Notes under the pieces: generated by a model | The model's input: only the letters and a program-made list of their open reading frames with translations | Told to the model about the DNA's origin: nothing | Database searches by the model: none | DNA from: Indioceanicola profundi | GTDB lineage: Bacteria; Pseudomonadota; Alphaproteobacteria; Azospirillales; Azospirillaceae | Direction: 5' to 3' | DNA: 64,000 nucleotides | NCBI RefSeq assembly: GCF_003568845.1 | Contig: NZ_CP030126.1 | Location: 3,145,501-3,209,500, forward strand | Translations under genes and position numbers: made by a program | In this document: positions 21,922-42,639 of the stretch, piece after piece | How positions within the stretch are numbered: the first letter of the stretch is position 1 | How the letters are laid out: every line of letters begins with the position of its first letter

Positions 21922-22557
21922 TCAGGTCTGCCAGCCGGGGAACAGGGCGCGCAGGCCTGTCGCGATGATCTCCACCGCCACCGCGGCCAGCAACAGGCCG
22001 AACAGCCGGTTCATGATGTTGAGGCCCGTCTGGCCCAGCCGGTGCCCGATCGGCACCGCCATGCGCAGGCTGATCCACAGCAGCATGCAGACGAACAGGA
22101 TGCAGGCCACCACCATGGCCGCATGCTCCCACCCCTCGCCGCGCTGCATCTGGATGATGACGGCGGAGATGGAGCCGGGGCCGGCCATCAGCGGAATGCC
22201 CAGCGGCACCACGCCCACGGCGGCCTTCTGCTCCGCCTCGTTCGCCTCCGTCGCGGTGTGCTGCACGGGAGAGACCTTGGCGTTCAGCATGCTGAGCGAG
22301 ATCAGCAGAAGCACCAGCCCGCCGCCGACCCGGAAGCTGTCCAGGCTGGTCCCCAGCACCTTCAGGATCAGGTCGCCCAGGAAGGCGGAGGTCAGCATCA
22401 CCGCCGCCACCGTCAACACCGCCGAACTGGCCGTCGACGCCCGCTCCTGCTCCGACCGGCCCTCGGTGAGGGACAGGAAGATCGGGATGGCGGCGAAAGG
22501 CGTCAGGATCGCGAACAGCGCGATGACGAAGCGGGAATATTCGGACCAGGGTTCCAT
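21922..22557 (-). CDS. MarC-family integral membrane protein
   Basis: 211 residues with six transmembrane segments; motifs FAILTPFAAIPIFLSLTEG, VGVVPLGIPLMAGPGSISAVI and NIMNRLFGLLLAAVAVEII are diagnostic of MarC/UPF0056. The transport function is not established for the family (it is not a proven multidrug pump). Same strand as hemJ, 94 bases upstream; the two may be co-transcribed. Confidence 0.9.
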   Translation of the reverse strand: MEPWSEYSRFVIALFAILTPFAAIPIFLSLTEGRSEQERASTASSAVLTVAAVMLTSAFLGDLILKVLGTSLDSFRVGGGLVLLLISLSMLNAKVSPVQHTATEANEAEQKAAVGVVPLGIPLMAGPGSISAVIIQMQRGEGWEHAAMVVACILFVCMLLWISLRMAVPIGHRLGQTGLNIMNRLFGLLLAAVAVEIIATGLRALFPGWQT

Positions 22558-22643: not shown

Positions 22644-23080
22644 GTAGGTCGGTCATGCGGAGCGTGGCCGACACCCTTCGCCTATCCTCCGGGCCATTTG
22701 ATCCCGTTCTCCCTGTGGAGAGGGATGGTTCGGGGTGTTGGAAAGGATGGATAGGATGAATGGGATGGCACGCCGGACCGGCGGAGCCAATCCTGTATAA
22801 TTCAGCTTGCACCGGCCAATGAGGTCCTCTCCCTCATCCTATCCATCCTATCCATCCTATTCATCCTTGCCTGATTCCAGACAGTCTCTCACGGCCTGCG
22901 GGAACCGAGCCGAATGTCCGGGCTGGTGACATCTCGAAAGATGAAAATGATGAAGAGGATGAAAATGATGGTGCAGGGCTATTCGGTTCTCACCTCAGCT
23001 CCCGATTGGTCTTGAACACTGCCTGCGGCGCGCCCGGTCCATCATCTTCATCATTTTCATCATTCATGATGTCACCAGCC
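22644..23080. repeat. Composite palindromic repeat, copy 1
   Basis: Three modules in a row. Module 1: REP-like palindrome GTAGGTCGGTCATGC... (22644-22671). Module 2: 22742-22868, bounded by AAGGATGGATAGGATGAA and its near reverse complement, with a core containing CGCCGGACCGGCGGAGCC. Module 3: 22921-23080, bounded by GGCTGGTGACATCTCGAAAG and its complement, with arms made of GATGAAAATGATG units and a core CTTGAACACTGCCTGCGG. The same order recurs at 23191-23605 and 31533-31951. No ORF of note. Confidence 0.88.
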
Positions 23081-23110
23081 TCGACGCCGAGGCTCTAACG
23101 GGCAACCCTG

Positions 23111-23138
23111 TCGGCCACGCTGCGCGTGACCGACCTAC
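23111..23138. repeat. Inverted copy of the 28-base module-1 palindrome
   Basis: Exact reverse complement, 28 of 28 bases, of the copies at 23191-23218 and 31533-31560. With the former it makes a perfect 28-base inverted repeat separated by 52 bases. Confidence 0.9.
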
Positions 23139-23190
23139 TCCGGACATTGATCCGTAGCGCCTGCCGCCTGGGCTTGTACACCGCAGAGCC

Positions 23191-23605
23191 GTAGGTCGGT
23201 CACGCGCAGCGTGGCCGACATCCATCGCTCATCCGCGCCATTGAACGCCGTCCTCCCCGTGGGGAGGCTTGGTTCTGGATAGGGGAAAGGATGGATAAGG
23301 ATAACGGAGCCCCCATCACCTGCCGGTGCGGGCTGCTGCTGAAGGACTGGCTCCGCCGGTCCGGCGCGCTATCCCATTCATCCTATCCATCCTTGCCTGA
23401 TAACCAACCGTCTTTCACGGCCTGTGCGAACCGGGCCAAATGGCCGGCCGGTGACATCTAGAAAGATGAATAAGATGAACAGGATGAAAATGATGGTGCG
23501 GGGCCATTTGACTTCCGTCTCGGCCCCCGCCCGGTCTTGAGCACTGCCTGCGGCGCGCTCAGTCCATCATCCTCATCCTTCCCATCTTTCAAAATATCTC
23601 CGGCC
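23191..23605. repeat. Composite palindromic repeat, copy 2 (module-2 core inverted)
   Basis: Module 1 at 23191-23218 (identical to 31533-31560); module 2 at about 23286-23397; module 3 at 23446-23605 (GGTGACATCTAGAAAGATG... to ...CCCATCTTTCAAAATATC, right end decayed). Within module 2 the GCCGGTCCGGCG / GGCTCCGCC core runs opposite to copies 1 and 3, while modules 1 and 3 keep their orientation. The repeat ends 15 bases from the lysK stop. Confidence 0.88.
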
Positions 23606-31532: not shown

Positions 31533-31951
31533 GTAGGTCGGTCACGCGCAGCGTGGCCGAAACCCTTCGCCTGTCCGGTCCATTTGACGCTGTTCTCCCT
31601 GTGGAGGGGGGGGCGGGGAATTGGCAAGGATGACGGGATGGCGCGCCGGACCGGCGGAGCCAGTCCTGGATCACCAGCCCGCACCGGCGGATGAGGTGCT
31701 CTCCCTCATCCTATCCATCCCATTCATCCTTGCCTGATAACCGAATGCCTGCCGGGGCTGGCGCGGACAGGGTCGAATGGATGGGCTGGTGACATCTCGA
31801 AAGATGAAAAAGATGGAAAGGATGAAAATGATGGAGCGGGGCCATTCGCCTAAGCCTCAGCTTCCGGTTCGTCTTGATCACTGCCTGCGGCGCGCCCGGT
31901 CCATCATCTTTATCCTTCCCATCTTTTTCATCTTTCATAATGTCAACAGCC
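31533..31951. repeat. Composite palindromic repeat, copy 3
   Basis: Begins 18 bases after the maiA stop. Module 1 at 31533-31560 (28 bases identical to 23191-23218), module 2 at about 31626-31735 (left arm shortened; core in the same direction as copy 1), module 3 at 31784-31951 (GGCTGGTGACATCTCGAAAG ... CATAATGTCAACAGCC). It fills most of the gene-free interval between maiA and the next gene. Confidence 0.88.
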
Positions 31952-42400: not shown

Positions 42401-42639
42401 GGAAGGGAGACATTCTAGAAAGATGAAAATGATGAACAGGATGAATATGATGGGGCGCGGCGGACTGGTTCAGTCTGCCATTCGCCGACATCAATTTTGA
42501 AATGGGCGCTTTGCGCCCGGTAAAGATCCGGATTTGTTCATGCCATGGCTGCTGAAGGTCCTCGCAGCTGGAGACGATGCTCTCCTCCATCATTTTCATC
42601 CTGTTCATCATTTTCATCTTTCTAGAATGTCTCCCCTCC
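42401..42639. repeat. Lone palindromic element with 45-base inverted arms
   Basis: Left arm 42409-42453 (GACATTCTAGAAAGATGAAA...) and right arm 42587-42631 are reverse complements with a single mismatch in 45 bases; weaker pairing continues eight bases outward on both sides. The arms are the same GATGAAAATGATG type as module 3 of the composite repeats, but the 133-base core is mostly different. No ORF inside, no clear target-site duplication. Looks like a MITE-type or REP-type non-autonomous element. Confidence 0.88.

Follow-up and report, generated by a model that had tools for sequence, protein, structure and literature searches.

A probable BIME/REPIN-like mosaic in Indioceanicola profundi, with two hairpin modules between GTAG-type REPs and one module found in both orientations

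Two tandem units of a composite repeat, arranged head-to-tail, fill the interval beside lysK in Indioceanicola profundi (positions 22644-23605), each with the order REP, palindrome A, palindrome B. The family to which they belong is probably a non-coding, non-autonomous interspersed BIME/REPIN-like mosaic built on GTAG-type REPs, likely spread by a RAYT (REP-associated Y1 transposase) and largely selfish or neutral. Elements of this kind are already known; new here is a REPIN/BIME-like mosaic that carries two hairpin modules as cargo, with one of the two found in both orientations. The window, i.e., the whole stretch of 64,000 nucleotides that was analysed, corresponds to C1:3145501-3209500 in a genome of 5.37 Mb in four contigs, in which C1 comprises 3.44 Mb and starts at dnaA. 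It contains the following features (window positions):

21922-22557, minus strand: flanking gene of a MarC-family membrane protein (Pfam PF01914)
22644-22673, plus strand: GTAG-type REP GTAGGTCGGTCATGCGGAGCGTGGCCGACA opening copy 1, one of 97 genome matches to GTAGGTCGG-N8-22-CCGAC (control pattern: 11)
22740-22872, plus strand: A module of copy 1 with forward loop (type 1); hairpin whose arms consist of 9-bp GGATGRATR repeats, with a GC-rich loop of ~64 nt
22873-22920, plus strand: conserved 'mid' spacer between A and B
22922-23080, plus strand: B module of copy 1; its hairpin has ~47-nt arms built from 9-bp GATGAANNN repeats (GGTGACATCTcGAAAGATGAAAATGATG...) and a ~60-nt loop
23109-23138, minus strand: inverted GTAG REP ending copy 1, pairing with 22644-22673 as a 495-bp head-to-head (HH, GTAG outside) dimer
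23139-23190, no strand: 52-bp linker of a tail-to-tail REP pair, kept in 5/5 type 1-type 2 dimers
23191-23220, plus strand: GTAG REP opening copy 2
23284-23397, plus strand: A module of copy 2 with inverted loop (type 2); 55 nt at 93% complementarity to the A module of copy 1
23446-23605, plus strand: B module of copy 2, with no REP downstream, ending ~15 bp short of the lysK stop codon
23620-25236, minus strand: flanking lysK, class I lysyl-tRNA synthetase (Pfam PF01921, NCBIfam NF001968)
31533-31951, plus strand: third copy, with REP at 31533-31561, forward A from 31623 (left arm shortened), B at 31788-31951 and no 3' REP
42406-42634, plus strand: lone B arms without A or REP, complementary at ~47/48 outer positions; ~130-nt interior unlike the usual B loop

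An earlier note, made from the letters of the window, had described a gene-free interval with two copies of one ordered unit by lysK and a third copy at 31533-31951. All modules lie where it placed them, and blastn with copy 1 (E ~5e-62 for copy 2, ~2e-101 for copy 3), period-9 and folding signals all far exceed chance. The order of the unit is indeed kept, but the two tandem copies are not the same, as copy 2 carries an inverted A loop and has no inverted REP at its end. That reading had missed the inversion of the loop and the inverted REP at the 3' end of copy 1, as well as the adjoining second REPIN type and the chromosomal clustering described below. The tail-to-tail REPs at 23109-23138 and 23191-23220 are complementary over all 30 nt, and the third copy starts 19 bp past the stop codon of a maleylacetoacetate isomerase-like gene. 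A coding role of 22644-23605 was discarded: its ORFs lack the strong third-position GC of genuine local genes, and the copies differ by single-base indels. In line with the claim of a gene-free interval, no coding signature was found. An Rfam search of the window returned no family reaching the gathering threshold, and a tRNA search of the window was likewise empty.

As the earlier note had supposed, the family is dispersed and not only the product of local duplication: a blastn search with copy 1 together with a pattern search yields 20 A-bearing copies at 15 loci, which with B-only and partial pieces amount to 17 loci, all on C1. Identity among copies ranges from 66 to 97% (median ~76-83%), and the copies, being diverged, show no sign of current activity. 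In the aligned layout, a REP (+) is followed by a spacer of ~65 nt, A with its ~64-nt loop, a spacer of ~50 nt, B with ~47-nt arms and a ~60-nt loop, ~30 nt of further sequence, and a REP (-). The A arms are arrays of the 9-bp unit GGATGAATA / GGATGRATR, the B arms arrays of the 9-bp unit GATGAAAAT / GATGAANNN. The genome matches the period-9 pattern GATGRANRNGATGRANRNGATG 80 times and its reversed control not at all; the sole match off the family loci, at C1:2422391, is an extra GATG period-9 array. The A module was never seen outside the element context in a genome search. B also occurs apart from A and REPs, at 42406-42634 of the window, and lone B arms are present at C1:2868668 as well.

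In six complete type 1 copies, which measure 479-495 bp, there are REPs at both ends with GTAG outside, and the HH spacer of the element (~420-435 bp) houses the two hairpin modules. Most type 2 copies are without the 3' REP, several other copies also lack one REP, and the 5' REP is absent from some. The 5' boundary is sharp: REP-bearing copies start exactly at GTAG, the flank diverges there, and the preceding base is C in all copies. Among the ten copies with a 3' REP, five run into the 52-bp linker and a type 2 unit, and the other five into a REPIN of the GTAGGTCGCAA class. This second class reads GTAGGTCGCAAGG...TTGCGAC and is regularly joined to the 3' end of the element (e.g., C1:3356793-3356877), while at 2384 kb an entire dimer is enclosed by two GCAA-type REPs in HH orientation. 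The family thus shows the combination that characterizes BIMEs, i.e., alternately oriented REPs with other conserved motifs, dispersed and intergenic.

The REP of the element consists of GTAG beside an imperfect palindromic stem, GTAGGTCGGTCACGC-GCA-GCGTGGCCGAC, variants of which with compensated stems occur genome-wide; the REP-type structure suggested earlier is thereby supported, as one of GTAG type. The matches to GTAGGTCGG-N8-22-CCGAC are distributed all round C1 (96), with 1 on C2. The genome also contains 15 ordinary HH dimers with a median of ~89 bp, two of which (1147423/1147467 and 3065168/3065212) use a TCACGC-type REP as in the element, without A or B. The earlier note had advised looking for a RAYT-type transposase elsewhere in the genome, and the single Y1 transposase encoded there is indeed a RAYT (C1:2600075-2600617, NF047646, 194.7 bits), flanked by inverted GTAG REPs at 2600000(+) and 2600708(-). 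The REPs beside the RAYT are of a different stem subclass (GTAGGTCGGCGCCGAGC...) and share GTAGGTCGG...CCGAC with the REPs of the element. Since the inner stem differs, the link to the RAYT is one of association, and it is by association that this enzyme is the candidate mover of the element.

Our explanation would be as follows. The core unit would be an oversized HH REP dimer, a 'giant REPIN' of 479-495 bp from GTAG to GTAG, the spacer of which captured the hairpin modules A and B. The mosaic would have spread as a unit, either as the HH unit, as the head-to-tail dimer (type 1, tail-to-tail REPs and type 2), or joined to a GTAGGTCGCAA-class REPIN. The likely agent would be the sole chromosomal RAYT acting on single-stranded REP hairpins, with recombination or replication slippage between copies perhaps assisting, and exchange between its own inverted arms would have turned the A loop in half of the copies. 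Several points weigh against the explanation: the REPs at the RAYT have a different stem, a 5' or 3' REP is missing from part of the copies, B occurs alone, the copies are diverged, and A and B keep to one arc of the chromosome although REPs do not. Inspection by eye shows no target-site duplication at type 2 or B-only copies, but RAYT-type movement would not need one. We infer the RAYT as mover, these units of movement, and a selfish or neutral status rather than a selected function.

The A loop is forward in 10 copies and inverted in the other 10. The outer ends of A are not turned with it: among the inverted copies, 9/10 retain GGAAAGG at the left end and 8/10 CCTTGCC at the right end, as in forward copies, which places the inversion breakpoints within the arms. 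When mapped on a tree built from the remainder of the element, loop orientation requires 3 changes and a single inverted clade is weakly rejected (p 0.046, the tree being poorly resolved), whereas with the tree of A itself one inverted clade is not rejected (p 0.33). A one-off origin of the inversion is thus disfavoured, not disproved; the loop has probably flipped more than once, via exchange between the arms. With the A loop in mixed orientation across otherwise aligned copies, the family is an archive of how long imperfect palindromes have undergone inversion in a bacterial chromosome.

A search of 81 genomes from the same taxonomic order did not find the family, and the A-arm pattern occurs in 0/384 other alphaproteobacterial genomes. 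A blastn search against plasmids gave no match, the exact degenerate A- and B-arm patterns were unmatched in viral and genome collections (in which the own genome is possibly absent), and a literature search on the arm sequences returned nothing relevant. One empty site was observed: in a relative (G054), which is too distant for a base-level joint, 37 bp separate the convergent gene pair that ends in ccmI, and here a 957-bp type 1-type 2 dimer widens the gap to 1034 bp. Three relatives carry differing single genes in the lysK-marC interval, hence no clean empty-site comparison is available there, and the interval may for this reason be an insertion hotspot. The Usp-phasin pair is not conserved in relatives, which precludes a clean comparison as well. 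The earlier proposal of a non-autonomous mobile unit agrees with the lack of an internal transposase, the strictly intergenic siting, the absence from the relatives searched and the 37-bp empty site, and is plausible; the case for mobility rests on this one site.

Each of the 17 loci is intergenic, in most cases with a stop codon 5-60 bp away; seven have convergent neighbouring genes and none has clearly divergent ones, as judged from gene orientations called by a simple GC-frame score without curation. This matches the placement described for GTAG REPs in general, which are intergenic and near 3' ends, between convergent or co-oriented gene pairs (PMC3733652). The genes left of two different copies (C1:3094913-3095890 and 3369797-3370792) look like paralogues, and a second MarC-like gene adjoins the copy at 3107864. 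The 17 loci are confined to a 1.13-Mb arc, 33% of C1, which runs from 2384 kb through 3440 kb to 78 kb, next to dnaA (p ~3e-7 under random placement), whereas 37 of the 96 REP matches on C1 lie outside it. Simple RAYT transposition does not explain why A and B keep to one third of C1; possible reasons are that the element spread locally, that neighbouring copies recombined, or that an arc of the chromosome was exchanged in the past. At C1:3002306-3003247, the A modules of neighbouring copies are 92% alike in opposite orientation and the remainder 76%, the kind of pattern that gene conversion between inverted neighbours would leave.

The arc also speaks for a reading in which the family spread without any transposase, by recombination- or replication-based duplication such as gene conversion or template switching at hairpins, which would explain both the confinement and the homogenisation of neighbours. 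Type 2 copies that lie closer together are also more alike (Mantel r -0.76, eight copies; weaker overall), and the 3002-kb neighbours fit the same picture. However, type 1 copies show no distance effect, and ectopic recombination alone is insufficient for flanks that are unrelated between loci and a 5' boundary that is sharp at GTAG. We regard this reading as quite unlikely. Somewhat better placed, although still unlikely in our view, is the possibility that A and B are MITEs of other, lost transposons, their arms being terminal inverted repeats, which landed beside REPs; their order would have been fixed by duplicating one block, and REPs and RAYT would be uninvolved in the spread. Lone B arms, one pair of them around a different interior, speak for such an origin, as do arms far longer than REPs, the absence of the 5' or 3' REP from some copies, and the extension of the block beyond the 3' REP into a type 2 unit or the second REPIN. 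Against it, A is confined to the element, the B-only copies lack a target-site duplication, a non-exhaustive search saw no transposase with ends matching A or B, and the REP-bearing copies begin precisely at GTAG.

A selected RNA or DNA structure, i.e., a long hairpin that guards 3' ends, attenuates read-through or organises the chromosome, appears very improbable. Folding is strong on both strands compared to shuffled sequences (z -10.6 for DNA, plus strand; z -11.7 for RNA, minus strand), gene 3' ends are preferred, and the loci cluster on the chromosome side adjoining dnaA. However, the same sites are favoured by REPs in general, B and the REPs are variably present, searches of relatives did not find the family, and there is no compensatory change, as the duplex energies of a copy's own arms are no better than those of arms combined across copies (A, p 0.34; B, p 0.20). 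The arms would thus stay complementary because both retain the repeat, rather than by co-varying, and selection for hairpins is not supported. A source of long-hairpin RNA, as the earlier note had also considered, is physically possible; it is the selection for such a hairpin that finds no support. Compared with these alternatives, the REP-based mosaic likely spread by the RAYT remains our preferred explanation.

REP ends that enclose ~430 bp of structured non-REP DNA in a genome with one RAYT constitute a natural test of RAYT cargo size and of mosaic assembly. A bolder form of the preferred explanation joins two propositions, namely that A is a recurrently inverting segment, with the 9-bp-repeat arms as inversion sites, the loop flipping at many loci and the outer ends fixed, and that the RAYT system mobilises REP-bounded cargo of ~0.5-1 kb rather than only REPINs of ~100 bp; taken together, the two are doubtful. 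REPINs and BIMEs are usually units of ~100 bp. MITEs are recognised by terminal inverted repeats from a known transposon and a target-site duplication, and here no such duplication is visible and a non-exhaustive search gave no transposon ends. Rhizobial RIMEs resemble the element, by description, in being ordered modules that are dispersed and non-coding, and to our knowledge GTAG REP ends are no known feature of either RIMEs or BOX.

Pneumococcal BOX (PMC3049150), again likened by description, shares the ordered modules and the dispersed, non-coding character. BIMEs (PMC2817692) are likewise intergenic mosaics of alternately oriented REPs and other motifs; the element differs from them in its additional motifs, which are long palindromes with arms of period 9, one being found in both orientations. 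With GTAG REPs and their HH and tail-to-tail dimers (PMC3733652) and with REPINs (PMC3116915), the element shares GTAG outside the stem, the imperfect palindrome, both types of dimer (the enclosing HH one in its six complete copies), the intergenic position near 3' ends and a RAYT gene flanked by GTAG REPs. It departs from them in its larger fixed mosaics, in the confinement of A and B to one arc, and in its HH spacer of ~420-435 bp with two long hairpins, whereas published spacers of GTAG REP dimers are mostly 20-100 bp (PMC3733652); the element is therefore filed as a variant and not as an ordinary REPIN. A regular association of REPs with longer palindromes is also seen in GTAG-15 of Anabaena variabilis and CGTC-1 of H. 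neapolitanus, whose REP dimers are inserted in long palindromes (PMC3733652). The nesting is reversed in the element described here, where it is the REP dimer that encloses the palindromes.
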